NCBI RefSeq assembly: GCF_027568515.1
Contig: NZ_JANKZF010000001.1
Span: forward strand, 1 to 64,000
Length of the DNA: 64,000 nt
Source: Arthrobacter sp. HY1533
GTDB taxonomy: Bacteria; Actinomycetota; Actinomycetes; Actinomycetales; Micrococcaceae
Direction: 5' to 3'
A model generated the notes under the pieces. The model saw nothing but the letters and a program-made list of their open reading frames with translations, did not search any database and had not been told where the DNA came from. Position 1 is the first letter of the stretch. Every line of letters begins with the position of its first letter. The translations under genes were made by a program, and so were the position numbers. Below, piece by piece: positions 16,682-57,893 of the stretch.

Positions 16682-16803
16682 TTCCCTGTTGCCAGTGCAG
16701 CTGCCTGTCGCGGCCAGAATGAACCGACCGCCACCGCAGCTCGTCCCCCAACGCATCCTTCATCCCTTCCGCCCATGGAAGATGACATGCATTGGAGCGG
16801 ACA

Positions 16804-17184
16804 GTGAGGCATTCGAACCCGGGACTGGCATTGCGCCGGGCCTCGTTGATGTTTGTGCTGTTGGGCATCATGGCAGGGATCCTGGGCATGCACGCGCTGG
16901 CCGCAGGTGGCATGCCGCCTGCGAGCGCAGGGAGTTCCCATTCCCAACATGACGGTTCCTCCCCCGACCTCGACCCTGATTGCTTGGCATTCGGGCAGGG
17001 CGGCCACGCCTCCATGCATGTGGGCTGCGACCCTGCGCCCCCTGCCCCCGGCCTGCAGCTTGGGTCCATTGACGGGCAAGGCGGGGCGGCGCCGGCTCAC
17101 GCGGCTGCCTCCCCGGTTCCCCGAGACCGTGGCAGGATTCCCGCGGCGCCCACCCTTGAGCAACTTTCCGTGAACCGCAGATAA
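16804..17184 (+). CDS. DUF6153-family membrane protein
   Basis: This 126-residue protein has an N-terminal hydrophobic segment F-V-L-L-G-I-M-A-G-I-L-G-M-H-A-L-A-A-G followed by a His/Asp/Cys-bearing exterior region (S-H-S-Q-H-D, D-C-L-A-F, H-A-S-M-H-V-G-C), matching actinobacterial DUF6153 proteins that often sit beside copper-handling genes. The His, Met and Cys residues could bind copper outside the membrane. GTG 16804 is chosen because GGAG lies 6 nt upstream. A TTG at 16792 would overlap that site. The gene lies between the CsoR-type promoter and the multicopper oxidase, so it is probably copper-induced. Confidence 0.7.
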   Translation: MRHSNPGLALRRASLMFVLLGIMAGILGMHALAAGGMPPASAGSSHSQHDGSSPDLDPDCLAFGQGGHASMHVGCDPAPPAPGLQLGSIDGQGGAAPAHAAASPVPRDRGRIPAAPTLEQLSVNRR

Positions 17185-17221
17185 GACACCGGCCCCTCCA
17201 GCCCCGCGCTTTTGCGCCCCT

Positions 17222-17238
17222 GGCGGCACTGTGCCGCC
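17222..17238. repeat. perfect 17-bp palindrome before the multicopper oxidase
   Basis: GGCGGCAC and GTGCCGCC flank a single T, between the DUF6153 stop and the oxidase ATG. A 1-nt loop makes it a poor RNA hairpin, so it could be a protein-binding dyad or an attenuating stem after breathing. There is no T-tract. Confidence 0.4.
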
Positions 17239-17266
17239 GCACGCCACCATTTAGACGGAGAGTCCC

Positions 17267-18829
17267 ATGCACAACAACAACCCCTTGAACCGCCGTGCTT
17301 TCCTTGGCCTGTCCCTGGCCGGCACCGCTGCGGCAGCCCTGGCCGCCTGCTCACCCGCCGCCCCGGATGCCGCGCGCATCCTGCCCGGAGATCCGCTCAT
17401 CGCGGAATACGAGTCCCGGCGGGTCTCCTCCGGCAAGGTCGTCAACCAATCCCTGGATGCCGCGCCCGTCGCGGCCGCGCTCAACGGACGAGCCATCACG
17501 ACGTGGGGCTACAACGGCGCCCTGCAGGCCCCCACCATCCGGGCCAGTGTGGGTGACCAGCTCAAGGCCACCATCAAGAACGGGCTCGGCGAGGCCACCA
17601 GCATCCACTGGCACGGCCTGGCCCTGCGCAACAACGCCGACGGCGTCCACGGCCTCACCGAGGACGGGACCCCAGCGGGAGGTGAACACCTCTACGATTT
17701 CAAGCTGCCGCACCCCGGCACCTACTGGTACCACTCGCATGTGGAGATGCAGCGTGAACGTGCCCTGTACGGCGCCCTCATCATCGAGGACCCCCAGGAA
17801 CCCCTTGACTACCACAGGGACTGGGTCATTGTCCTGGACGACTGGATCGACGGCGTCGCCACCAAGGACGGCGCGGCAACCACCCCGGACGAGGTCATGA
17901 AGGAGCTGTCCGGCGGCATGGGCGGCATGGACCACGGCTCAATGGGACATGGAAGCACGGGAAGCGGCCCCATGCCCATGGGCAACACGCTCATGGGTGC
18001 TGTGAGCGAGTACCTGGGCGGGGATGCCGGCGACGTGGCCACGCCCTTTCACCTTTTCAACGGCGCCACCTCCGAGGACCCGGCTGTCTTTGTGGCAAAG
18101 GCCGGCGAGCGCATCCGCCTGCGCATCATCAACGCCGCAGGTGACACCGCCTACCGTGTTGGGCTGCCGGGACAGCGGATCACCCTGACCCACAGCGATG
18201 GCTTCCCGGTCAAGCATGAGGAGGTTGACGCCGTCGTGCTGGGCATGGGCGAACGCATTGACGCCCTGGTCACAGTCCAGGAGGGGACGACGCCGGTGCT
18301 GGCGCTCGCGGAGGGCAAGCGGCAGCTGGTCCACGGCCTCATCAGCACGGGGACGGGGACGGGGACGGGGACTCCCCCGCTGCCGGCGTCGCTGCCCATG
18401 GAGCTTGGCGGCACCGTGCTCGACGGCGGCAAGCTCACCGCAGATCCCGCCGTGGTGCTTGCCGCCAGGACGCCGGACCGGGTGCATGAAATGCGGCTCA
18501 CGGGCGGCATGGAAAAGTACGACTGGGGCATCAATGGCCATCGCTTCGACATGGCCAAACCGTTCGAACGTACGTTCGATATTCGTGCGGGTGAGCGCGT
18601 GCAGCTGGCATTCATCAATGACACGGACATGTGGCACCCCATGCACCTGCACGGGCACACCTTCCAGATTGGCGAGGCAGGGGCACGCAAGGACGCAGTG
18701 ATCGTGCGTCCCGGCGAAACTGTCACGGTGCAGTTCGACGCCGACAATCCGGGACAGTGGCTCACCCACTGCCACAACGCCTACCATGCGGAGCGAGGCA
18801 TGATGGCGGTGGTTTCCTACATCGCCTAG
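17267..18829 (+). CDS. Tat-exported multicopper oxidase
   Basis: This 520-residue three-cupredoxin oxidase resembles CueO/CumA-type copper-detoxifying enzymes. It has a twin-arginine signal (NRRAFLG, 8-14) with a possible lipobox L-A-A-C at 25-28. Copper ligands are complete: HWHG (114-117), HSH (156-158), HPMHLHGH (457-464) and HCHNAYH (501-507) with axial Met512. A Met/His-rich loop near 213-245 recalls the CueO methionine-rich copper-binding insert. GGAG lies 6 nt before the ATG. It follows the DUF6153 gene under a CsoR-type promoter, implying Cu(I) oxidation outside the membrane. A hexanucleotide tandem repeat at 18347-18370 codes for alternating Gly and Thr. Confidence 0.92.
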   Translation: MHNNNPLNRRAFLGLSLAGTAAAALAACSPAAPDAARILPGDPLIAEYESRRVSSGKVVNQSLDAAPVAAALNGRAITTWGYNGALQAPTIRASVGDQLKATIKNGLGEATSIHWHGLALRNNADGVHGLTEDGTPAGGEHLYDFKLPHPGTYWYHSHVEMQRERALYGALIIEDPQEPLDYHRDWVIVLDDWIDGVATKDGAATTPDEVMKELSGGMGGMDHGSMGHGSTGSGPMPMGNTLMGAVSEYLGGDAGDVATPFHLFNGATSEDPAVFVAKAGERIRLRIINAAGDTAYRVGLPGQRITLTHSDGFPVKHEEVDAVVLGMGERIDALVTVQEGTTPVLALAEGKRQLVHGLISTGTGTGTGTPPLPASLPMELGGTVLDGGKLTADPAVVLAARTPDRVHEMRLTGGMEKYDWGINGHRFDMAKPFERTFDIRAGERVQLAFINDTDMWHPMHLHGHTFQIGEAGARKDAVIVRPGETVTVQFDADNPGQWLTHCHNAYHAERGMMAVVSYIA

Positions 18830-18925
18830 GCGGCGGCGCTGGCGGGTGCGCGGACGCCCGTGCCCGCCAGCCGGCTGCGGCGTAGACTTTCCCCACCGCT
18901 TCCAAAAAGAAACCAGGTGGTCCTG

Positions 18926-19693
18926 ATGCGGGTTGAAATCAGCGACAAATGGGTGCGTGCCATGGTGGACGGCACGGCCGTGGTGGACAGCCGGGCGCCC
19001 ATGCTGTTCTGGGAGCCAGAGTTCCCCGTTCCCTCCTACGCCTTCGATCCGGCGGACGTCCGCACCGACCTCCTGACGCCGTCGACGGCGGGACCGGACG
19101 GGCCGCCGTCGTTCTTCTCCCCCAAGGGGCCTGTGGCCAGGTGGTTCGACCTGCAAGTCGGGGACCGGGTGATTCCCCATGCCGCCTGGACGCGGGACGA
19201 TCCCGCCCTGGAAGGCCGCATCACCTTCAGCTGGGCGCCAGGGGCCATGGACCGTTGGCTCGAGGAGGAAGAGGAGGTCCACAGCCACCCCCGCGACCCC
19301 CACAAGCGCGTTGAGGCACTCCCCAGCTCCCGGCACATCACCGTTTCACTGGACGGGGTGCTGCTTGCGGACAGCAAGGACCCCGTGCTCCTGTTCGAAA
19401 CGTACCTGCCCACCCGCTACTACCTTCCGCGGGAAGATGTGCGGCTGGAACAGCTGCACGAAGGCAGCAACCACAGCCACTGCCCCTACAAGGGCTTCGC
19501 CTCGGACTACTGGGACGCTCCGGGCAGCCCGTCAGTGGCGTGGTCCTACCCGGACCCCTACCCGGCCGTGGCCCGCATCAAGGGCCGGATCGCGTTCTAC
19601 AACGAATCCGTTGACCTCACCGTGGACGGCGAGCCTGCACCGCGGCCCCACTCCATCTTCTCCAACACCCGGAACCGGCCCGGCGGGGAATAG
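18926..19693 (+). CDS. DUF427-domain protein (tandem)
   Basis: This 255-residue protein contains two DUF427 units. The first (about 1-115) starts V-R-A-M-V-D-G-T-A-V-V-D-S-R-A-P and the second (about 150-250) has the full signature I-T-V-S-L-D-G-V-L-L-A-D-S, L-P-T-R-Y-Y-L-P-R-E-D-V and C-P-Y-K-G-F-A-S-D-Y-W. The second carries the conserved C-P-Y-K-G motif and the first does not, so one domain may be structural. The biochemical role of the family is not established. AGGTGG lies 5 nt before ATG 18926. It is 96 bp after the oxidase gene and may form its own unit. Confidence 0.8.
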   Translation: MRVEISDKWVRAMVDGTAVVDSRAPMLFWEPEFPVPSYAFDPADVRTDLLTPSTAGPDGPPSFFSPKGPVARWFDLQVGDRVIPHAAWTRDDPALEGRITFSWAPGAMDRWLEEEEEVHSHPRDPHKRVEALPSSRHITVSLDGVLLADSKDPVLLFETYLPTRYYLPREDVRLEQLHEGSNHSHCPYKGFASDYWDAPGSPSVAWSYPDPYPAVARIKGRIAFYNESVDLTVDGEPAPRPHSIFSNTRNRPGGE

Positions 19694-19725
19694 TCGGCTC
19701 CCGTTTCGTGGAGAACAATGGTCCC

Positions 19726-20037
19726 ATGGACTTTGAGCTGCTCACGATTGCCGACTGCCCCAACGACGCCCCCGCAGAGACCCTGTTTGCCCAGGCCCTG
19801 GCACTTGAAGGATTCGACGCTGCCGCGCTGTCCGTCAGGGAAGTCCGCAACGACGACGAGGCAGCCGCCCTGCGCTTCCACGGTTCACCCAGCTTCACAG
19901 CCAACGGCGTTGACCTGTTCCCCACGGACGCTGAGCCGGCGGTCTCCTGCCGCGTCTATGCAGTGTCCGGCGGGCTGGCAGGGACGCCGGAACTCGAATC
20001 CCTGCGCAGCGCCATCAGGACGGCCGCCACACTTTAG
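19726..20037 (+). CDS. thioredoxin-like fold protein, possible alkylmercury lyase relative
   Basis: This 103-residue protein has a thioredoxin-type layout: strand F-E-L-L-T-I-A-D-C-P-N, where the active-site CxxC is reduced to C-P-N-D, then L-R-F-H-G-S-P-S-F-T-A-N-G-V-D and a terminal S-C-R-V-Y. This pattern recurs in small actinobacterial proteins labelled thioredoxin-like or alkylmercury-lyase-like. The second active-site Cys is missing, so simple disulfide reductase activity is doubtful. AACAAT ends 6 nt before ATG 19726, suggesting a leaderless start. Its TAG overlaps the convergent HD-GYP gene's TAA by 4 nt. Confidence 0.65.
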   Translation: MDFELLTIADCPNDAPAETLFAQALALEGFDAAALSVREVRNDDEAAALRFHGSPSFTANGVDLFPTDAEPAVSCRVYAVSGGLAGTPELESLRSAIRTAATL

Positions 20038-21653
20038 GCGCCGGCGCCCCTGTCCCACAGCCCCTTGTCCAGGGCAAAGAGCGTTGCGGTGACCCTGTTG
20101 GAGGACCCCGTCTTTTCATAGATGTGCTCCACATGGTTGCGCGCGGTCTTCGGTGCGATGAACAGTGCCTGTGCAATGGCCTTGTTGTCCATCCCCCGGC
20201 ACAGCAGCCGAAGCACCTCAAGTTCCCTGGCCGTGAGCCCGGCAGCCGTGTCACGCCGCGGAGCCTGCTTCTGGCCGGCCGCAGCGAGAACGGCATCCAC
20301 GCTGGCCTGGTCCAGCCTGCCCGCAGCAACCTCCGACTGCAGCCGGGCAGCCGCCTCCCCCGGCGACATGGCCGCACGGTGCGGCCTGGGCTCAAGCCAG
20401 CTTTGGCACGCGTCGGCCGCGGCAAGGATCCGCTGCAAGGCATCCAGCCCCTCCGCGGTGCGCCCGCGAGGGTAGCCCGAGCCGTCCAGCCGCTCACGGT
20501 GGGCACCTGCCACCTCGGCAACGCGGCGCATTCCCGGCACGCGGCCCAGGATGCGCTCGCTCAGGAACGGGTACATGGCCAGGTGCTCCCGTTCCATGGA
20601 CGTCAGCGGACCGGCCTTGTCCCACAGGCCGTTGGAGACGCCCATGCGCCCAAGGTCGTGGACCCAGCCGGCGCGGCGCACCGTAGCAACCTCCGGCGCC
20701 GCGCAGCCCAGCTGCTGGGCGGCGCCGGCTGCGAGAGCCGCAACCTGGCGTGAATGCCCGGCAGTCCACGGCGACTTCAGGTCGGCAAAGTCGCCCAGGG
20801 CGGCCAGCACGCCATCCAGCGCTTCCTGCCCCAGCCCGGCTTCAACTGGTGCCGCGGCCAGGGCGGCAGGCCACGGGTCAAGCTCCAGCAGCCCATCCGT
20901 CAGCTCCGCCGCCCGGGCACAGAACACGTCAGCCAGCACCGGGTCAAACTGCGTCCCGCGGCGCTCGCCGACGGTCGCCACGGCAGCATCGAGACCGGCG
21001 GTGCGCAGGAACACCTCAGCGGTGTCGGCCAGCTGGGCAATGCGCATTTCGAGGGGAATCTCGGCCCCTTTCCGTCCCGCCGGCAGCCCCAACCCGTCCC
21101 AGCGCTCAAAGGTGTTGCTGAGGATGGCCGGCATGTCCCCGTCAAGCCCCACCCGGCAGGCGAGCCGCCCGGCCGAGGTGCAATGGGAACGGATGAGTTC
21201 CCGCACGGCGGTGTGGGCCGTGGCCGTGAAACGGGCCTGGCCCAGGGTGCGGGTCACGCGCGGCAATCCGGTTCCTGTGTGCCGGAGCATGAGGGAGAGC
21301 ATGGGCAGGCCGTGGGCGTCGATGAAGTAGTAGTCGGCGCGGAAGGAAATGTCGTCCCCAAACAACGCCGCCAGTTCGTGGGAGTCTGCATGGCAGCCAA
21401 TCCACGCGATCAGGTTGGCGTAGTAGATGCGCCCGCGCCCGGACTGGTCAATGCCAAGCGCCTCCGCCATGCGCAGTCCCAACAGCGTGGCCCGCAGCAT
21501 GTGTTCCATGGGCTGTCCCAGCCCGAGGTCGATGGCCAGGGACAGGGCGGCCAGGATTTCACTGCGCCGCGGGGCTTCCTCCCGCAGGCGGGCCCCTTCC
21601 GGCGCGGGTCCGGAAGCTGCCCGACTGGTGCTGCCCGAACCGTGCTCAGCCAC
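20034..21653 (-). CDS. HD-GYP domain protein with LuxR-type DNA-binding domain
   Basis: This protein is about 539 residues with a GTG start. The central region (about 285-430) has the HD-GYP pattern: T-A-G-H-S-R-Q-V, W-V-H-D-L-G-R-M-G, H-R-E-R-L-D-G-S-G-Y-P and A-A-D. These are cyclic-di-GMP phosphodiesterase residues, here joined to a C-terminal LuxR helix-turn-helix (about 475-539, L-T-A-R-E-L-E-V-L-R-L-L, N-K-A-I-A-Q-A-L-F-I, K-T-A-R-N-H-V). The N-terminal half is an additional helical domain of unknown type. It lies at the end of an operon with an AhpD-like and a hypothetical gene. GGGAGG abuts the GTG, so the exact start is uncertain. Confidence 0.8.
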   Translation of the reverse strand: MAEHGSGSTSRAASGPAPEGARLREEAPRRSEILAALSLAIDLGLGQPMEHMLRATLLGLRMAEALGIDQSGRGRIYYANLIAWIGCHADSHELAALFGDDISFRADYYFIDAHGLPMLSLMLRHTGTGLPRVTRTLGQARFTATAHTAVRELIRSHCTSAGRLACRVGLDGDMPAILSNTFERWDGLGLPAGRKGAEIPLEMRIAQLADTAEVFLRTAGLDAAVATVGERRGTQFDPVLADVFCARAAELTDGLLELDPWPAALAAAPVEAGLGQEALDGVLAALGDFADLKSPWTAGHSRQVAALAAGAAQQLGCAAPEVATVRRAGWVHDLGRMGVSNGLWDKAGPLTSMEREHLAMYPFLSERILGRVPGMRRVAEVAGAHRERLDGSGYPRGRTAEGLDALQRILAAADACQSWLEPRPHRAAMSPGEAAARLQSEVAAGRLDQASVDAVLAAAGQKQAPRRDTAAGLTARELEVLRLLCRGMDNKAIAQALFIAPKTARNHVEHIYEKTGSSNRVTATLFALDKGLWDRGAGA

Positions 21654-33046: not shown

Positions 33047-34561
33047 ATGACCACCCCGAACCACACGGCCAAGCGCCAGAACATGCTGTTCCTCATGACG
33101 GACCAACAGCGCATCGACACCCTTGGCTGCTACGGCAACACCTCACAACACACGCCCAACCTTGACCGGCTGGCCGCGCGCGGCACCACCTTTGACCGGG
33201 CCTACACGCCCACCGCCATCTGCACGCCGGCACGTGCCAGCCTGCTCACGGGCCTGCAGCCCTTTGAACACGGGCTGCTGGCCAACTACGAATGGAACTC
33301 CGGGCACCGCGAGGAGCTGCCGGACGGCCTGCCCACCTTTTCCGCTGCCTTGCTGGGGCAGGGCTACCGTCTGGGCCATGTGGGCAAGTGGCACGTGGGA
33401 AAGGACAGGGGCCCGGAGCACTACGGCTTCGAGGGCATCCACCTGCCCGGCGCCCTGAACGTCTTTGACGATCCCGGCTACGAGGACTGGCTCAAGGCCA
33501 ACGACTTCCCGGACTTCCACATCTCCTCCCCCGTCTACACCACGCGGGCCGACGGCAGCCAGGGCCACCTGATTGCCGGTGTCACCGACCAGCCCACGGA
33601 AGCCACCTTCGAGGCCTTCCTTGCAGACCAAACCATCGCGAAACTGCGGGAGTTTGCCGACGGCGCGCTGGCACAGGAGGACGGCCAGCCGTTCTTCCTG
33701 TCCTGCCACATCTTTGGCCCGCACCTGCCCTACCTGATCCCGCAGAAGTGGTACGACATGGTGGACCCCTCCACCATCGAGCTGCCCGGTTCCTTCGCCG
33801 AGACGTTCCACGGCAAGCCAATGGTGCAGCAGGCCTACGCCGAGTACTGGTCCACGGACTGCTTCACGGTGGAGGAATGGAAAAAACTCACGGCGGTCTA
33901 CTGGGGCTACGTGGCCATGATCGACCACGAGATCGGCCGCATCCTGGCCGTCCTGGACGAGTTGGGGCTCACCGACAGCACCGCCGTCATGTTCACGGCC
34001 GACCACGGTGAGTTCACCGGCGCTCACAGGCTCAATGACAAGGGCCCGGCCATGTATGAGGACATCTACCGCATCCCGGCCATCCTTGCCCTGCCCGGGG
34101 AGGTGGAGCGCCGCGAGGACCGCTTCATCAGCCTCCTGGACTTCACCGCCACCTTCCATGAGATTGCCGGAGCCGACCCTTCCGGCGTCAACGGCCGGAG
34201 CCTGCTGCCCCTGGCCACCGGCGCAGAGGTGGAGGGCTGGCGCGAGGACATCCTGTGCGAGTTCCACGGCCACCACTTCCCCTATGCCCAGCGCATGATC
34301 CGCAACAAGGAAGTGAAGTACATCGCCAACCCCGAGGGCATCGACGAGTTCTACGACATGATCGCGGACCCCGACGAACTGACCAACGTGATCGACGTCC
34401 CTGTCTACCGCGAACGCGTCAGCGCCATGCGCCGGGAGATGTACCGGCAGCTCGTTGAGCGCGGCGACAAGTTTGCCCAGTGGCTGGCCTTTGCCGGCGA
34501 CATCCCCAGCCACGAGCGGGTCCGGCCGGACACCGCCGTCGAACGCTTCATCACCCAATAG
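33047..34561 (+). CDS. Cys-type sulfatase (cytoplasmic)
   Basis: This 504-residue type I sulfatase hydrolyses a sulfate ester through a formylglycine residue. The activation motif C-T-P-A-R is at 59-63 (A-I-C-T-P-A-R-A-S-L-L-T-G). Metal ligands are expected at D19-Q20 and in F-T-A-D-H-G-E-F-T-G. H-V-G-K-W-H-V-G-K is the second family signature. There is no signal peptide, so desulfation takes place in the cytoplasm after import. It starts 6 nt after the binding-protein stop, without a clear ribosome binding site. No formylglycine-generating enzyme is in the window, so a maturase elsewhere is required. The substrate is inferred only from neighbours: a sulfated amino sugar or another sulfate ester. 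Confidence 0.9.
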   Translation: MTTPNHTAKRQNMLFLMTDQQRIDTLGCYGNTSQHTPNLDRLAARGTTFDRAYTPTAICTPARASLLTGLQPFEHGLLANYEWNSGHREELPDGLPTFSAALLGQGYRLGHVGKWHVGKDRGPEHYGFEGIHLPGALNVFDDPGYEDWLKANDFPDFHISSPVYTTRADGSQGHLIAGVTDQPTEATFEAFLADQTIAKLREFADGALAQEDGQPFFLSCHIFGPHLPYLIPQKWYDMVDPSTIELPGSFAETFHGKPMVQQAYAEYWSTDCFTVEEWKKLTAVYWGYVAMIDHEIGRILAVLDELGLTDSTAVMFTADHGEFTGAHRLNDKGPAMYEDIYRIPAILALPGEVERREDRFISLLDFTATFHEIAGADPSGVNGRSLLPLATGAEVEGWREDILCEFHGHHFPYAQRMIRNKEVKYIANPEGIDEFYDMIADPDELTNVIDVPVYRERVSAMRREMYRQLVERGDKFAQWLAFAGDIPSHERVRPDTAVERFITQ

Positions 34562-42242: not shown

Positions 42243-42806
42243 TCAGTGCGGCCGGGCATGGTTGAGCAGCGCGAGTACGGCTTCCGCCATTTCGGTGGTT
42301 GACTCCTTCTCGCCGGCGCGGGAGGTGTCCACGAGCGGGCATTCGTTCGCCGCGGCGATGGCTTTGTATCTGGCTATGTAGTGCCGATGCCAGTCGACGG
42401 ATTCGGCAGCTTCATCCCGCGTGGCCAGCCGGTCCAGGGTAGTGGGAAGGTCCGCCCAGCACAGGACGGTGGGGATCCACAACGTCCATCGGGCCTGGAA
42501 AACGGCGTCATCCACCAGGGACGCCACCGTCAGCCAGGACCTGTCCAGGATGGTTGGTCCCGTGCCGGCCGCGGACTGGAGGGCGTGCTCCAGAGCCGAT
42601 GCGCCAATGCGAAGGACCGACTCGGTGTCCCCCTCCGCACTGGCCCGGCTCAGGTCCTGCCCGCGGCTGCCACCAAAGGGCCGCAGGTACAACATGCCCA
42701 ATTGGGCTGCGACGTTGACGGCGATCGTGGTCTTGCCGGTGCCGTCGTGGCCGTCGATGCCGACCACGCCGTCAAACCGCGGCAACGCCTTGCGCGTTAC
42801 TCCCAC
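42243..42806 (-). CDS. thymidylate-kinase-like P-loop protein
   Basis: This 187-residue protein has a nucleoside-kinase-type P-loop, G-I-D-G-H-D-G-T-G-K-T-T (16-27), and an L-D-R-S-W segment (88-91) that corresponds to the D-R motif of dTMP kinases, followed by A-T-R-D-E-A. It would transfer phosphate from ATP to a nucleotide-like acceptor, but is not an ordinary Tmk by overall sequence. GTG 42806 overlaps the end of the AbrB-like gene by 10 nt, so the two are coupled. It is the last gene in the four-gene PurC-like operon. The substrate is unknown and may be the product of that pathway. Confidence 0.7.
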   Translation of the reverse strand: MGVTRKALPRFDGVVGIDGHDGTGKTTIAVNVAAQLGMLYLRPFGGSRGQDLSRASAEGDTESVLRIGASALEHALQSAAGTGPTILDRSWLTVASLVDDAVFQARWTLWIPTVLCWADLPTTLDRLATRDEAAESVDWHRHYIARYKAIAAANECPLVDTSRAGEKESTTEMAEAVLALLNHARPH

Positions 42807-43105
42807 GGGTGCAGGGCAACCGTGTGCGATTCGTCGTCGAGTTCAAGGTAGAAGTGGCGCGCCTTGCCTCCCTCGAGAACCTTCAGGGCATCGCCACGGA
42901 CCTCCATTTGGCCAGCGGGGGAAACCCGGAATCCGCCGTCCTTCGTGGCGGGTGCCAGCAGCACGGCATTGCCCTTGACCGCCACGGTCACGCGCGAGCC
43001 GGTCTTGGGCTCCATGCCCAGGGCCTTTCGAGCGGACACCGGCAAGGTGATGACACCCCCGGGCGAAACCTTCGTGCGGGTGTTCTTGATGGTCATGGTG
43101 CTCAT
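42797..43105 (-). CDS. AbrB/MazE/SpoVT-family DNA-binding protein
   Basis: This 102-residue protein has an N-terminal swapped-hairpin AbrB domain (about 8-52): T-K-V-S-P-G-G-V-I-T-L-P-V-S-A-R-K-A-L-G-M and G-S-R-V-T-V-A-V-K-G-N-A-V-L-L-A-P. The C-terminal part is unassigned (K-V-L-E-G-G-K-A-R-H-F-Y-L-E-L-D). It could regulate its own operon or be an antitoxin-like partner, though no toxin is adjacent. AAGGAG lies 8 nt before ATG 43105. It follows the PurC-like gene by 15 nt. Confidence 0.8.
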   Translation of the reverse strand: MSTMTIKNTRTKVSPGGVITLPVSARKALGMEPKTGSRVTVAVKGNAVLLAPATKDGGFRVSPAGQMEVRGDALKVLEGGKARHFYLELDDESHTVALHPWE

Positions 43106-43120
43106 GATGGCATCTCCTTT

Positions 43121-44125
43121 TCACTGTTTCGGGTTGACGGGAAGTGATGGCCCAAACAACATGGTGTGGAGCCGGGCGTAGCGTTCAAGAATGGAATCGG
43201 GCCCGCCGCCGCTGCGCCACTGGTCCTTGTCGAGGGCCTCTGCATCATCGGCGGCATGGGTGCGCACCCGCATGCAGTCGGGGCTGATTTCCCCGTAGAC
43301 GGTGCCGCTGTCCTGGTCGATGAAGAAGCAGATGTCGATGAGCTTCAGTCCCCCGGCGGTGAAGAATTCCTCCAGCCAGGCAAAGGTGTCCCGGGCCAGG
43401 CGCTTGGCCAGCTGCACATCGCGGGTCCACAGGGCGGCGTAGTCGTCGGGCAGGGGCTCGTCGGCCAGCCGGTTGCCTTCCCGGTCTGTCAGCGGGTGCC
43501 GCCAGTCGAAGCAGACAACGGGTTCCGCAAACCGTTCCCAGCGCTGCAGCGCGGGTCCGGCGACGGTTGGGTGCTCCTCGGTGAAGAGGTAGCGGTGGAT
43601 GGGTGAACCAATGTGGTATCGCTTGACCCGGGTCTCCAGGTTGCACACCTGCACCCTGCGCTCGGCCAGCAGGGGCCCCTGCGGCGATTCCACCAGTGAC
43701 AGGAAAGCCGAGGAGAGACGGAAGTTTCCCGGGGCCACCGCCATGGACCTGAAGATTTCGGCCGAGAACCTGGCCCGGATGGCCTCCGTCCCCTCCACCA
43801 CCCCGTACCTGTTGTTGGTGAACGAGTACAGGGTGGGCAGGAGCCGGGCCAGGGCGATCTTGGGTGTCAACAGGCGGATCTCCTTGCTGTCGCCCAGAAC
43901 GAGAAGCGGCAGCTGGGTGAAATCAAAATGGACCTGCTGCAGTACCTGGTCCATGAAGGAATGCCGCTGGTGGTCCAGGCCAACATGCAGCGGCTCGCCG
44001 CTTGGCCCGCTCAGGGTGACCAGTTCCGGTGTGCTGGCCACCAGCTGCACGTCCAGTTCCAGGTCGTGGCATTGGTCAAGGATGAGGCTGGCGGCCGGAT
44101 TCCTGTGAAGCGTCGATGTGGGCAT
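43121..44125 (-). CDS. divergent PurC (SAICAR synthetase)-like enzyme
   Basis: This 334-residue protein has the SAICAR synthetase fold by motif order: V-C-N-L-E-T-R-V-K-R-Y-H-I-G-S-P (160-174) corresponds to the PurC M-V-P-I-E-V-V-V-R-N-x-A-A-G-S region; E-P-V-V-C-F-D-W-R-H-P-L-T-D (201-214) to E-P-I-x-E-F-x-x-K-x-D; G-L-K-L-I-D-I-C-F-F-I-D (259-270) and G-E-I-S-P-D-C-M-R (278-286) to G-L-x-L-V-D-x-K-x-E-F and D-E-I-S-P-D-x-x-R. PurC ligates an amino acid to a carboxylate with ATP. The N-terminus differs strongly and no purine genes are near, so a different ligase reaction is likely. AGGAG lies 6 nt before ATG 44125, which lies inside the upstream gene by 50 nt. Confidence 0.75.
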   Translation of the reverse strand: MPTSTLHRNPAASLILDQCHDLELDVQLVASTPELVTLSGPSGEPLHVGLDHQRHSFMDQVLQQVHFDFTQLPLLVLGDSKEIRLLTPKIALARLLPTLYSFTNNRYGVVEGTEAIRARFSAEIFRSMAVAPGNFRLSSAFLSLVESPQGPLLAERRVQVCNLETRVKRYHIGSPIHRYLFTEEHPTVAGPALQRWERFAEPVVCFDWRHPLTDREGNRLADEPLPDDYAALWTRDVQLAKRLARDTFAWLEEFFTAGGLKLIDICFFIDQDSGTVYGEISPDCMRVRTHAADDAEALDKDQWRSGGGPDSILERYARLHTMLFGPSLPVNPKQ

Positions 44126-45464
44126 GGGGTTCTCCTGTCTCAGTGCACAATTGCGGGCCGACAATTCCGAAGAGCTGGTTCAGGGCGCGGAGTGCAGCTC
44201 CGGTGGCCACTGCGGATTGCGCCAGGGCACGCCCGGGATCGCCATCGCGTGCCAGTTGCTGCGCCTCAGTGGTGCGGAATCCGCAGATTGATTCCAGCCA
44301 GTCATGCACCTGGTTCTTGCTGAGCCGCTGGTTCGCGGCCCCAAAGGTGCCCTTGGCGATGTTGGCCGGAATCTTCACAAAGTATTCGAACAAGTTGTTC
44401 AGCCCGTCCGCGGCGTCCGGCCGGTGGGCCAGGGCGGCACCCACCATTCCTAGTTGCTGCCTTTGGCGCACCATGCCGAAGCTGAGGTTTCGCATCATCA
44501 GGTCCGCCGTGGCCTTTGCCGGCACGCGCGCCTCTCCGTAGATGCACAGGCCGTAGTCGGCCAGGTTGTCCCCCGACAGGCACTGCATGCGCCACAGTTC
44601 CTGGGCAGAGTAGACACCCACGTTGAGCTCCTTCCCGGCAAAGCTGGGAGAAGTGCCATGGAGTTTCCGCAGGACCGATTCGGCATCCCTGACCACCAGG
44701 ACCAGGTCGTAGTCGGCAAAGTTGTCGCTGTTGATGCTGGATCCGTACACCACAACGCATTCGAGCTCGGGGCCGATCCGCTCCTTCAGCTCCGGCAGGA
44801 AGGCGAAACGGGGCCGCAGTCCCGCCGGCACTTCGCCCTGGGTCAGGTGAACCTCGGTGACCTCGCCGGGGCCGTCAAAATGGCTGATGACTTCTTCAAA
44901 GCAGCGGCGGATGGCCAGCAGCCTGTCCAGCTCGCCCAGGCTGATCCCGTGGGCCAGGGTTTGCACCTGGTCCATGATGTCCTGCCCGTCCACGCCGGGA
45001 ATCAGCCCCATCGCCGCGTACTTTCCGGCCTGCCAGAGACGGTCGTACTTGCTGGCCAGCGTTCCGGCGCTGTAGCGCTTCTGGACCACGGCTGCCGAAA
45101 GGGTGACCGAGGCCAGAAACATCACCGATTCGAGCCACAGGCGCTCCAGCTCTGCCTGGCCGGTCCCAAAATGAAGTGGCGCGAGTGCCGTCCCGGAGGG
45201 CGCCCCCAAACGAACGGCAGTCCGGTAAAAGCGCGGGTGGAAAACCGACGACCAGTCCAGCACGAAGGGCGATATGATCCGCGGGTTTTCAATCCGCTCC
45301 GCCGCAGCCCACTTGTGGATGTCCAGCAGTTCAGCCCCGGAAACTTCACGGTCGGTGTAGACATAGTTGAGGTGAAATGGCGTCCCCCGCCACGTGGGTG
45401 GCCGCACAACGGAAACCACCTCGCGGACCGCGCCCGCAACGACATCCGCCACCCCAGCAGACAT
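44076..45464 (-). CDS. nucleotidyltransferase-fold protein
   Basis: This 462-residue protein has an N-terminal part without recognised domain (H-L-N-Y-V-Y-T-D-R-E near 31-40) and a pol-beta type nucleotidyltransferase core at about 230-300, with G-S-S-I-N-S-D-N-F-A-D-Y-D (241-253), giving the G-S and D-x-D metal residues Asp251 and Asp253. A helical C-terminal region follows, with F-V-K-I-P-A-N-I-A-K-G. The fold transfers NMP to hydroxyl, amine or protein acceptors. AGGGGG lies 5 nt before ATG 45464. It is the first gene of the operon with a PurC-like ligase, an AbrB-type protein and a kinase-like protein. Its product is unknown. Confidence 0.72.
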   Translation of the reverse strand: MSAGVADVVAGAVREVVSVVRPPTWRGTPFHLNYVYTDREVSGAELLDIHKWAAAERIENPRIISPFVLDWSSVFHPRFYRTAVRLGAPSGTALAPLHFGTGQAELERLWLESVMFLASVTLSAAVVQKRYSAGTLASKYDRLWQAGKYAAMGLIPGVDGQDIMDQVQTLAHGISLGELDRLLAIRRCFEEVISHFDGPGEVTEVHLTQGEVPAGLRPRFAFLPELKERIGPELECVVVYGSSINSDNFADYDLVLVVRDAESVLRKLHGTSPSFAGKELNVGVYSAQELWRMQCLSGDNLADYGLCIYGEARVPAKATADLMMRNLSFGMVRQRQQLGMVGAALAHRPDAADGLNNLFEYFVKIPANIAKGTFGAANQRLSKNQVHDWLESICGFRTTEAQQLARDGDPGRALAQSAVATGAALRALNQLFGIVGPQLCTETGEPHAHIDASQESGRQPHP

Positions 45465-55390: not shown

Positions 55391-56821
55391 CTAGAGGCCG
55401 GCGGGCTTGGCCTGGCTGTGGTGCGGCTCGTCGCCCACCTCGTGCTGGCGCAGCCAAAGCTTGCGTTCCATGTCCGCCCGGACCTCCGCGTAGGCGGGGT
55501 CGTGGTGGACGTTGTTGATCTCGTCGGGGTCCGCCAGGAGGTCGTACATTTCCCATTCGGGGTGGAACACTGCCCCGCTGGTGCCGGGCAGTCCCAGGCC
55601 ATCGTTGTAGAAGTAAATGATCTTGTAGCGCTCGGTGCGGTAACCGTAATGCGCGGGCGCACGGTGCGCGGCGTCGTCGTTCTCAAAATAGCGGTAGTAC
55701 ATGCCTTCCACCGGCTCGGCCTCGGGCCGTTCCCGCAGGTCCGGCCAGATGCTGCGCCCCTGCATGCGTTCGTGGTGCGGGACGTTGGCCGCATCCAGGA
55801 TCATCTGGGCCAGGTCAACGTTGGTGGTGATGCCGTGGAACGTCTTTCCGGGTGCCAGGGCGGCCGGGTAGCTGAGCACGAACGGCATGCGCAGAGCCTC
55901 CTCGTACATGAACCGCTTGTCGAACCAACCGTGGTCGCCCAGGAAAAAACCCTGGTCCGAGGTGTACATGAGCAGCGTGTCGTCGTACTGGCCCCTTTCC
56001 CGCAGCCAGTCGCTCACGCGGCCCACATTGTCATCCACCGAGGCCACGCACGCCAGGTAGTCCTCCATGTAGCGCTGGTACTTCCAGACGGCAAGCTCCT
56101 CGTAGCTGAGCCCCTCGGGCGGCAGCTCCTTCAGGTCGTCCATGTTCATGAAATCGGCCACACCCATGGTGGCCCGGTGGGTGGCCGCCGAACGCGTTGC
56201 GAGGTCGTCCGTAAACGTCCGCGGCACAGGAATCGGGTCCTTGTACATGCCCGCGTGCTTTTCATCCGGCTGCCACGGCCGGTGCGGGGCCTTGTGGTTG
56301 ATCAGGATGACCCAAGGCTCCTCCCCCTCCAGCCCCTCGGCCCAGCGCAACGCCAAGTCCGTGATGATGTCCGTAGCATAGCCCTTCTCTGTCCGCCGCC
56401 CCTGCACAGACAGGAACGTCGGGTCAAAGTATTCGCCCTGGTCAATGAGCACGTCCCAGTAGTCGAAGCCCCGGGGATCGTGTTCGGGCCCCTCCCCCAA
56501 ATGCCACTTGCCCACCACGGCGGTGCGGTACCCGGCGTCCTTGAGCAGCGAAATGAACGTGGGTTGCCCCGCATCCATGTGCGTGCTCAGCGTGGTCACG
56601 CCGTTGACGTGGCTGTAGGTGCCGGTCAGGATCGATGCCCGGCTGGGCGAGCACAGCGCATTGGTGGCGAAGCAGTTTGCCAGCACCCAGCCGTTCTGGG
56701 CAATTTCATCGATCCGCGGCGTCGTGTTGACCAGCGAGCCGTACGCCCCCACGGCGTGTGCCGCGTGGTCGTCGGTGAGGATCAGCACGATGTTGGGACG
56801 TTGGCGGGTCTGTGAGGTCAA
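55391..56821 (-). CDS. Cys-type sulfatase (cytoplasmic), locus B
   Basis: This is a 476-residue type I sulfatase. The formylglycine motif is C-S-P-S-R at 57-61 (A-L-C-S-P-S-R-A-S-I-L-T-G), metal residues D17-D18 in L-I-L-T-D-D-H and Y-T-S-D-Q-G-F-F-L-G-D-H-G, with V-V-G-K-W-H-L-G as second signature. It has no signal peptide. TTG 56821 is the plausible start because an upstream Arg/Pro-rich extension lacks character; a GAAAG lies about 9 nt upstream. It belongs to an operon with a sugar importer, so it desulfates an imported sugar or polyol sulfate. A maturase elsewhere is needed. Confidence 0.88.
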   Translation of the reverse strand: MTSQTRQRPNIVLILTDDHAAHAVGAYGSLVNTTPRIDEIAQNGWVLANCFATNALCSPSRASILTGTYSHVNGVTTLSTHMDAGQPTFISLLKDAGYRTAVVGKWHLGEGPEHDPRGFDYWDVLIDQGEYFDPTFLSVQGRRTEKGYATDIITDLALRWAEGLEGEEPWVILINHKAPHRPWQPDEKHAGMYKDPIPVPRTFTDDLATRSAATHRATMGVADFMNMDDLKELPPEGLSYEELAVWKYQRYMEDYLACVASVDDNVGRVSDWLRERGQYDDTLLMYTSDQGFFLGDHGWFDKRFMYEEALRMPFVLSYPAALAPGKTFHGITTNVDLAQMILDAANVPHHERMQGRSIWPDLRERPEAEPVEGMYYRYFENDDAAHRAPAHYGYRTERYKIIYFYNDGLGLPGTSGAVFHPEWEMYDLLADPDEINNVHHDPAYAEVRADMERKLWLRQHEVGDEPHHSQAKPAGL

Positions 56822-56885
56822 GGTGGCTGGCTTTCTGATTGGGTCCGGGGCAGGGCGGCAATGATGGACGACGGCGGCACTAGCC

Positions 56886-57893
56886 CTAGGCGGTGAGCTC
56901 GAGTTCCTCTGCGGGGAGCCGGAACGCAAGATCCTCGCCGCGGGACAGGCGGTGTACCTCGGCCACGGTGCTCATGGCCATGCGTTCAAGCTCCGTCCCG
57001 AGTGATCCTGCCATGTGAGGGGTCAACAGCACGTTGGGGTGGTCGAAAAGTCCCGAATCTGCCGGCAAATCCCACGGAGTGGTCACATCGAGCACGGCAA
57101 ACAGCGTGCCCGCCTGGATCCGGGCCAGCAACGCGTCCTGGTCCACGAGTTCCCCGCGGGCCGTGTTGATGAACGTGGCGCCGGACTTGAAGGAGGCGAT
57201 CAGCTCAGCGTTCACCAAGTTCCGGGTGGATGGCAGCGAGGGTGCATGCAGGCTCACCACGTCCGAGGTTGCGGCCAGTTCCTCAAGCGTCACCTTTGCC
57301 ACGCCCAGGGCCTTGGCCTCGGCGTCGGAGAGGAACGGGTCGGCCACCACGAGTTCCAGCTCGTAGGACTGCATCAGGCGGATGACGTGGCGGCCAATCT
57401 TGGACGCGCCAATGATGCCAACCCGCTTGTTGTAGTTGCCCAGCTCCGGGAACTGCGACTCGGCATGGATCATGTCCCGGAGCCTGTGGACGCTCCGGGC
57501 AACTTGCAGCACCCGCTTGTTGGCCAGCAGCACCATGGCCACTGTGTACTCGGCGACGGGAATGGAGTTGGCGTCGGCGGCCGTGCTGACCTGGATGCCG
57601 CGGGCCCAGGCGGAGCCGTCCATGTGGTTCTTGACTGTTCCGGCCGAGTGGAGGATGTAGCGGAGCCCAGGCGCCGAGTTGAGCACTGCGCCGTCGATCA
57701 TGGGACAGCCCCAGCCGGTGATGAGTGCATCGGCCTGGGCCAGCAGGGCAAGCGAACGGTCACTGGAGAACTCGGCCATGGGTTCGCGGCTGAGCAGGGT
57801 GGCACCGGACTCCAGGGCGTCCAGTACGTGCGGCGGGAAGATCCTGTGCGCCACGTCCTGGGGCATGGCCAGGGCCACCTTCAGGGCGTTCAC
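56886..57893 (-). CDS. D-isomer-specific 2-hydroxyacid dehydrogenase
   Basis: This 335-residue protein has the NAD-binding motif G-I-I-G-A-S-K-I-G (about 159-167), catalytic Arg in N-T-A-R-G-E-L-V-D and His in L-T-P-H-M-A-G. The Glu that normally follows D-V is replaced: L-D-V-T-T-P-W-D instead of D-V-x-E. Some sulfatase-linked relatives use Asp here, so catalysis may differ. GTG 57893 overlaps the permease TGA (GTGA), so it is translationally coupled with the importer. It likely oxidises or reduces an acid derived from the imported substrate. Confidence 0.82.
   Translation of the reverse strand: MNALKVALAMPQDVAHRIFPPHVLDALESGATLLSREPMAEFSSDRSLALLAQADALITGWGCPMIDGAVLNSAPGLRYILHSAGTVKNHMDGSAWARGIQVSTAADANSIPVAEYTVAMVLLANKRVLQVARSVHRLRDMIHAESQFPELGNYNKRVGIIGASKIGRHVIRLMQSYELELVVADPFLSDAEAKALGVAKVTLEELAATSDVVSLHAPSLPSTRNLVNAELIASFKSGATFINTARGELVDQDALLARIQAGTLFAVLDVTTPWDLPADSGLFDHPNVLLTPHMAGSLGTELERMAMSTVAEVHRLSRGEDLAFRLPAEELELTA

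Follow-up and report, generated by a model that had tools for sequence, protein, structure and literature searches.

At positions 42243–45464 of the first 64,000 nucleotides of contig NZ_JANKZF010000001.1 from Arthrobacter sp. HY1533 (the whole stretch analysed, hereafter the window) lies a minus-strand operon for a nucleotidyltransferase (NT), a relative of the SAICAR synthetase PurC, an AbrB-like protein and a P-loop kinase-like protein. The operon is real and unusual, and it most likely encodes a variant of coformycin-type nucleotide biosynthesis. More specifically, and tentatively, we read it as a compact, horizontally spread pathway that diverts the histidine intermediate phosphoribulosyl-formimino-aminoimidazole carboxamide ribonucleotide (PRFAR) into a coformycin-like modified nucleotide. 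An initial annotation, made from the sequence alone, had described four tightly packed genes with 50- and 10-nt overlaps whose products make or modify a nucleotide-like small molecule, perhaps a natural product, signal or defence compound. The packing is confirmed at these positions and a nucleotide-like product is still the most likely one, with natural product and defence both possible roles; the interpretation as a whole is supported in part, and its amide-ligase component fares less well, as discussed below.

The four genes recur together well outside Arthrobacter. When 84,980 species genomes were scanned with the PurC-like protein as query, in a non-exhaustive search that depends on an exact pattern match, eight further loci appeared at 50–81% identity. 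Their hosts are Paeniglutamicibacter, Nitrotoga, Collimonas, Mesorhizobium, Nitrospirales, Cupriavidus, Bacteroidales and Eremiobacterota, names that we take to represent five phyla. The query was PurC alone, yet the four families reappear with gene order and strand conserved, which bears out the conserved four-gene operon that the initial annotation had envisaged. Counting the window, the genes are intact in seven of nine loci; the eighth, in Collimonas, has its NT in two pieces at contig ends. The AbrB gene directly follows the PurC-like gene in 9/9 loci, while kinase and NT are each present in 8/9, so that linkage holds in eight of the nine; at the Cupriavidus locus (L009) neither NT nor kinase was located beside PurC, and we scored it as a miss for both. 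Spacing between genes ranges from the 50-nt overlap in the window to a 75-nt gap in Bacteroidales (L010), with start codons as we chose them. That the genes adjoin by chance, or that this PurC is a decaying duplicate, is ruled out, because gene order and the residue pattern described below persist across phyla.

Within any one group the cassette is scarce. Among 58 genomes searched, the Arthrobacter genome alone has the PurC-like protein, which is missing from 57 relatives' genomes, 22 of the same genus among them. Profile surveys gave no new loci: one hit each among 296 genomes of the window's phylum, 395 of the Bacteroidales genome's phylum and 398 of the Collimonas phylum, all already known; these surveys score first-look candidates, and a miss there is not proof of absence. 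No match was found when plasmids were searched with the PurC-like protein (P0002). With the PurC-like protein of L031 as query, only ordinary purC-type genes appeared among the best 10 of 35 plasmid records (4/10 so annotated; 27–31% identity), and L032 had no plasmid match. Viral contigs searched with P0002, the NT profile and the PurC of Lak phages yielded no confirmed locus, and the PurC profile yielded one (L015). By eye, the flanking genes of the window and of the Paeniglutamicibacter locus are unlike. This is the pattern of a rare, transferred cassette.

The PurC-like protein (334 aa, 43121..44125, minus strand, starting 50 nt within the NT gene) shares its fold with PurC and departs from it in key residues. 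The segment for residues 65–326 (43148..43933, minus strand) has the SAICAR-synthetase fold, aligning with 2yzl over 230 residues at a root-mean-square deviation of 2.4 (VIA-align). It is the sole operon protein above a Pfam cut-off (PF01259, 29.9 bits against 20), in agreement with the PurC match predicted by the initial annotation. Unlike PurC, it has no match to the PurC equivalog TIGR00081. It also exchanges K11, R94, K123, K177, E179 and D191, each of which at least 11 of the 12 canonical PurC proteins retain and 11/11 members of the cassette family have replaced; residues are numbered as in E. coli PurC, where E179 and D191 are presumably the Mg-ATP ligands. Three of the changes, K177C, R94K and K123R, occur in 23/23 proteins, comprising the 11 family members and 12 PurC-like proteins from Streptomyces-like genomes, and in 0/12 canonical PurC, as well as a common Cys (C284 in P0002). 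The label Streptomyces-like for these 12 genomes (L031–L042) is inferred from their size (7–11 Mb), from the class of the window and from an IS630 element in L038 that is found mostly on Streptomyces plasmids (51 of 61 records).

This residue pattern is matched by the phylogeny. In a tree of 36 sequences (11 family members, 12 Streptomyces-like proteins, 12 canonical PurC and L058), the cassette family and the 12 Streptomyces-like proteins form one clade with 100% ultrafast bootstrap support. Approximately unbiased tests rejected three alternatives (p 0.0006–0.0024), including those that join the family to canonical PurC or to L058, the single further PurC-like protein included, which we guess from its position to be a formycin-type PurC. 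The tree omits the PurC of L034, a 94% match to its L031 counterpart, those of L057 and L063 (extra copies from one genome, missed by the phmmer step), the fragments L053 and L056, and the duplicates L054, L059–L062 and L065–L068. The family profile scores 69–98 bits on the 12 Streptomyces-like proteins and at most 34 bits on the 12 canonical ones. Membership of a purine operon is ruled out because the genome's canonical PurC lies elsewhere, on another contig, and TIGR00081 is unmatched; moreover, no operon protein passes an NCBIfam purine-pathway cut-off, and inspection of the neighbours by eye recognised no purine genes, as the initial annotation had noted. In the Eremiobacterota metagenome-assembled genome (MAG; locus L011) we found no canonical PurC, only the cassette copy, which may reflect incompleteness.

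The Streptomyces-like members of this clade point to coformycin-type chemistry. A relative of one short-chain dehydrogenase (SDR) lies near the PurC-like gene in 12/12 Streptomyces-like loci and is adjacent to it in nine (Pfam was checked on one). Judged by gene content, this pair corresponds to PenC and PenB in clusters of the pentostatin type, in which PenA is described as HisG-like, PenB as an SDR and PenC as SAICAR-synthase-like, its function being called unclear (PMC12648386). The closest known systems, the coformycin, pentostatin and adechlorin clusters, combine a PenC/AdeA-type SAICAR-synthetase homologue with a HisG-like protein and, in ade, a HisA-like one. One study reports HisG homologues from ade, pen and pyr and a HisA homologue from ade, and its tree of the SAICAR-synthetase gene adeA unites the pentostatin, coformycin, pyrazomycin and adechlorin clusters (PMC13055916). 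Early coformycin and pentostatin steps are said to resemble histidine synthesis (PMC11592144), and a review mentions in-vitro work on coformycin ring expansion (PMC11188666). The cassette resembles these clusters in that its PurC falls in the clade of the SDR-bearing clusters' PurC, its kinase family is common to three of the 12, HisG and HisA are linked to it in L010 and HisG in Lak phages; it differs in lacking the SDR reductase, in having two extra components, the AadA-fold NT and the AbrB-like protein, and in occurring in several phyla. The shared kinase homologues stand beside the SDR (~1e-39 to 1e-41), and the nine kinase-negative loci were viewed within 9.5–15.5 kb only. The same three clusters encode a long protein, alignable over its full length to the fusion of an adenosine deaminase and a PurC-like domain in L042. 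These fusions (L032, 5069–6913; L037, 5882–7720; L042, 6185–8014; Pfam was run on L042, and the others are 85–87% identical to it) lie near the SDR, the cassette-type kinase, an NT-fold gene and, by eye, a ParB-like gene.

A direct link to histidine synthesis comes from the Bacteroidales MAG (L010). Here the cassette runs on into HisG, which starts 4 nt before the kinase gene ends and is followed by HisA and HisIE, each above its NCBIfam equivalog cut-off. This HisG is the only one in the genome. One strong HisA/HisF-family match was found there (241 bits, the four others at 22–36 bits), compared to two strong ones in 3/3 other genomes searched, and HisD was unmatched, whereas 7/7 genomes of other loci have it. 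With HisG, HisA and HisIE and without a detectable HisF or HisD, ATP and phosphoribosyl pyrophosphate (PRPP) can be taken no further than PRFAR, which HisA produces. Most simply, the cassette would depend on PRFAR and carry the required enzymes with it into hosts unable to make this compound. A cassette copy in an apparent histidine auxotroph is a natural experiment that points at PRFAR. The window genome has a single HisG, on the same contig as the operon and 335 kb away; HisG and HisA are linked to the cassette in L010 only, and HisG alone in Lak phages. This link and the Lak-phage relative go beyond what the initial annotation saw.

Taken together, these genes suggest the following pathway. 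PRFAR would be formed from ATP and PRPP by HisG, HisIE and HisA, usually the host's own. Coformycin biosynthesis involves a ring expansion, and the PurC-like enzyme would likewise join the ribulosyl C1 of PRFAR to the carboxamide carbon, leaving a ring-expanded base. Closure could give a 1,3-diazepine (8-ketocoformycin-like) 5'-phosphate; alternatively, the enzyme could make another PRFAR-derived base. The kinase would then phosphorylate the resulting nucleotide and the AadA-fold NT would transfer a nucleoside monophosphate (NMP) to or from it, with the AbrB-like protein as a probable regulator and an antimetabolite or signal nucleotide as the product. If this is true, coformycin-type chemistry, which the sources cited here place in actinomycete antibiotic clusters (one adds fungi), would also spread through other phyla in the form of a four-gene cassette and have a counterpart in Lak phages. 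Proteins that now lack annotation would gain a substrate, nucleotide antimetabolites would gain a compact genome-mining probe, and the PenC-type function, called unclear in the description of the pentostatin clusters (PMC12648386), would become testable in small, easily cloned operons.

A phage gene run combines proteins of comparable kinds. In the phage collection, the only matches to the cassette PurC-like protein are 15 Prevotella Lak records, at 36% identity. Their genes stand in a run of an RNA ligase-like protein, HisG, a P-loop kinase, Ham1, a CoaD-type adenylyltransferase and the PurC-like protein (L012, 4561–8786, and L013), which is kept in 5/5 records viewed of the 15. In L012, HisG, Ham1 (TIGR00042) and CoaD pass NCBIfam cut-offs, PurC falls below and the kinase is unmatched. 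The Lak PurC joins the cassette family in the tree with 96% support. In a second viral lineage, an IMG/VR contig (L015, 9343–10007) carries a C-terminal PurC-like piece that is 60% identical to that of Lak, and the next gene encodes a protein related to the Lak kinase (34%); a match to the N-terminal half of PurC was not among the matches listed. Common to the Lak run and the cassette are PurC-like proteins from one clade, a P-loop kinase and an enzyme that transfers nucleotidyl groups. In Lak this last enzyme is CoaD-type where the cassette has its AadA-fold NT, HisG and Ham1 are added, and no AbrB was seen. That a PurC-like protein, a kinase and a nucleotidyl-transferring enzyme recur together from non-homologous parts fits the proposed steps. 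In literature that was mostly open-access, we recognised no description of the operon or of the Lak HisG–PurC run. It is tempting to go further: a mobile PRFAR pathway present in several phyla and paralleled in Lak megaphages could make a new class of ring-expanded nucleotide, phosphorylated and nucleotidylated to a dinucleotide-like antimetabolite or signal, and a coformycin-like inhibitor of deaminases made by the phage version could blunt ATP-deaminating defences such as RADAR or Cad1. We consider this extension rather unlikely as a whole.

The his genes of L010, with the Ham1 and CoaD-type genes of Lak, would also fit nucleotide housekeeping, that is, a side branch that draws on intermediates of histidine or purine synthesis to make a non-toxic, cofactor-like or regulatory nucleotide for the host. 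In keeping with such a branch, inspection by eye showed neither transporter nor self-resistance genes conserved with the cassette. Against it, the cassette occurs in 0/22 other same-genus genomes and 0/57 relatives, and its neighbours in gene content are antibiotic-type clusters. We regard this explanation as very improbable.

Several observations weigh against the PRFAR pathway. The SDR is absent from L004–L013 and L015 (same search) and, by eye, from the operon open reading frames (ORFs) of the window, so the product is probably not coformycin itself. The coformycin/pentostatin label of the 12 Streptomyces-like clusters rests on gene content, not on named PenC, AdeA or Cof proteins. A second HisG is found in 0/12 of these genomes; a single HisG would agree with supply by the housekeeping enzyme and is not positive evidence for it. 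Placing the cassette NT in the same family as the NT of these clusters was rejected (hhalign probability 0.3). The kinases of Lak and of the cassette are only weakly alike (E ~1e-5), short of clear orthology. The his genes adjoin one of nine bacterial loci, and the absence of HisF and HisD concerns one genome, a MAG. The 12 canonical PurC proteins of the tree include no archaeal one, yet PurC of M. jannaschii is matched by one of the Streptomyces-like proteins at 3.5e-24. If E179 and D191 are the Mg-ATP ligands, their loss leaves room for other chemistry. Finally, pyrazomycin clusters fall within the adeA-based tree (PMC13055916), so the clade may not be solely ring-expanding. PrfC, the pyrazomycin/pyrazofurin homologue, is described as amide-forming on a pyrazofurin precursor (PMC8724604), which weakens the notion of a purely ring-expanding clade.

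PrfC also bears on the explanation offered by the initial annotation, in which a PurC-like ligase would couple a nucleotide carboxylate to an amine or amino acid at the expense of ATP, like the PurC homologues of C-nucleoside antibiotic pathways, and the other enzymes would activate or mask the product. The SAICAR-synthetase fold agrees with this, as do the amidation attributed to PrfC and the position of the pyrazomycin-type homologue near the diazepine ones in the adeA-based tree. In Eremiobacterota the cassette begins 3 nt past nonribosomal peptide synthetase (NRPS) genes with condensation, adenylation and carrier domains (L011, 129–8667), which makes an amino-acid partner conceivable. On the other hand, trees that join the family to canonical PurC or to the presumed formycin-type L058 are rejected, K11, K177, E179 and D191 are all lost in 11/11 members, and no PurB-like gene was recognised beside the loci by eye, no profile search having been made. 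Of "PurC-like ligase", then, the fold stands and the amide-ligase sense is less supported, both by the rejected trees and by the six residues exchanged throughout the family. We judge this pathway unlikely, and less likely than one that starts from PRFAR.

The NRPS genes of L011 suggest a natural product; farther upstream (L069), glycosyltransferase, methyltransferase and radical SAM domains are present. Other neighbourhoods suit a mobile or defence setting. In Mesorhizobium (L007), Vsr and a DndH-like gene lie 6–9 kb downstream of the cassette (17585–20889), in L010 a 1240-aa KAP P-loop ATPase with a weak QatA/PifA match (16751–20473) follows about 3 kb past HisIE, and the Nitrotoga contig (L005) carries an integrase, to which inspection by eye adds a recombinase and a transposase-like gene. 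These neighbours, the rare and patchy distribution, and the resemblance of the NT fold to HalB and MNT could reflect anti-phage defence, with a toxic or signalling nucleotide made on infection and the Lak pathway serving the phage itself or as a counter-measure. Against this, the operon proteins match PADLOC models only through a generic P-loop: NT, PurC and AbrB match 0 families, and the best match of the kinase (0.0077) covers residues 15–41. In addition, other loci adjoin NRPS genes (L011) or what look by eye like ordinary genes of the chromosome (window, L004 and Collimonas), and a conserved effector gene beside the cassette was not seen. Defence as the explanation is quite improbable in our view, and diversion of PRFAR into a modified nucleotide is the reading we retain.

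The remaining three proteins score below the cut-offs of the families that they resemble. The NT (462 aa, 44076..45464, minus strand) has the AadA/ANT(3'')(9) fold, a nucleotidyltransferase with a helical domain, over residues 209–437 (44154..44840, minus strand; VIA-align rows cover 209–438). It scores below the Pfam Adenyl_transf cut-off (11.1 bits against 22, E 0.21). Like the AadA/ANT(3'')(9) aminoglycoside adenylyltransferases it has a GSS...DxD motif, whose acidic residues we take to be catalytic; unlike them, it is only 10–16% identical and has an extra N-terminal part of ~200 residues. When the full-length protein was compared, no clear fold match to residues 1–200 was among the matches listed.

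The AbrB-like protein (102 aa, 42797..43105, minus strand) scores 21.4 bits with TIGR01439, under the cut-off of 28.3 (E 1.6e-4), which suggests a distant AbrB relative; by eye it looks like two AbrB-type hairpin repeats. The kinase-like protein (187 aa, 42243..42806, minus strand) has a GTG start 10 nt within the AbrB gene. It matches AAA_33 (6.2e-5) and Thymidylate_kin (0.0032), both below cut-off, and the thymidylate kinase thresholds are missed in Pfam (17.6 against 27 bits) and NCBIfam (14.5 against 83.25 bits). Its family profile aligns with thymidylate kinases over positions 7–161 (1.1e-5), and midasin P-loops score higher over 9–68. By these comparisons it is a P-loop NMP-kinase-like protein only, not assignable as a thymidylate kinase.

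All four coupled minus-strand ORFs are confirmed within the window, joined by the overlaps of 50 and 10 nt and by one gap of 15 nt. The third-position GC of the operon genes, 0.77–0.83, is comparable to the 0.76–0.87 of their neighbours. Elsewhere in the window, inspection by eye, with no database search, showed two sulfatase-like ORFs (33047–34561 and 55391–56929) near transporter-like genes.

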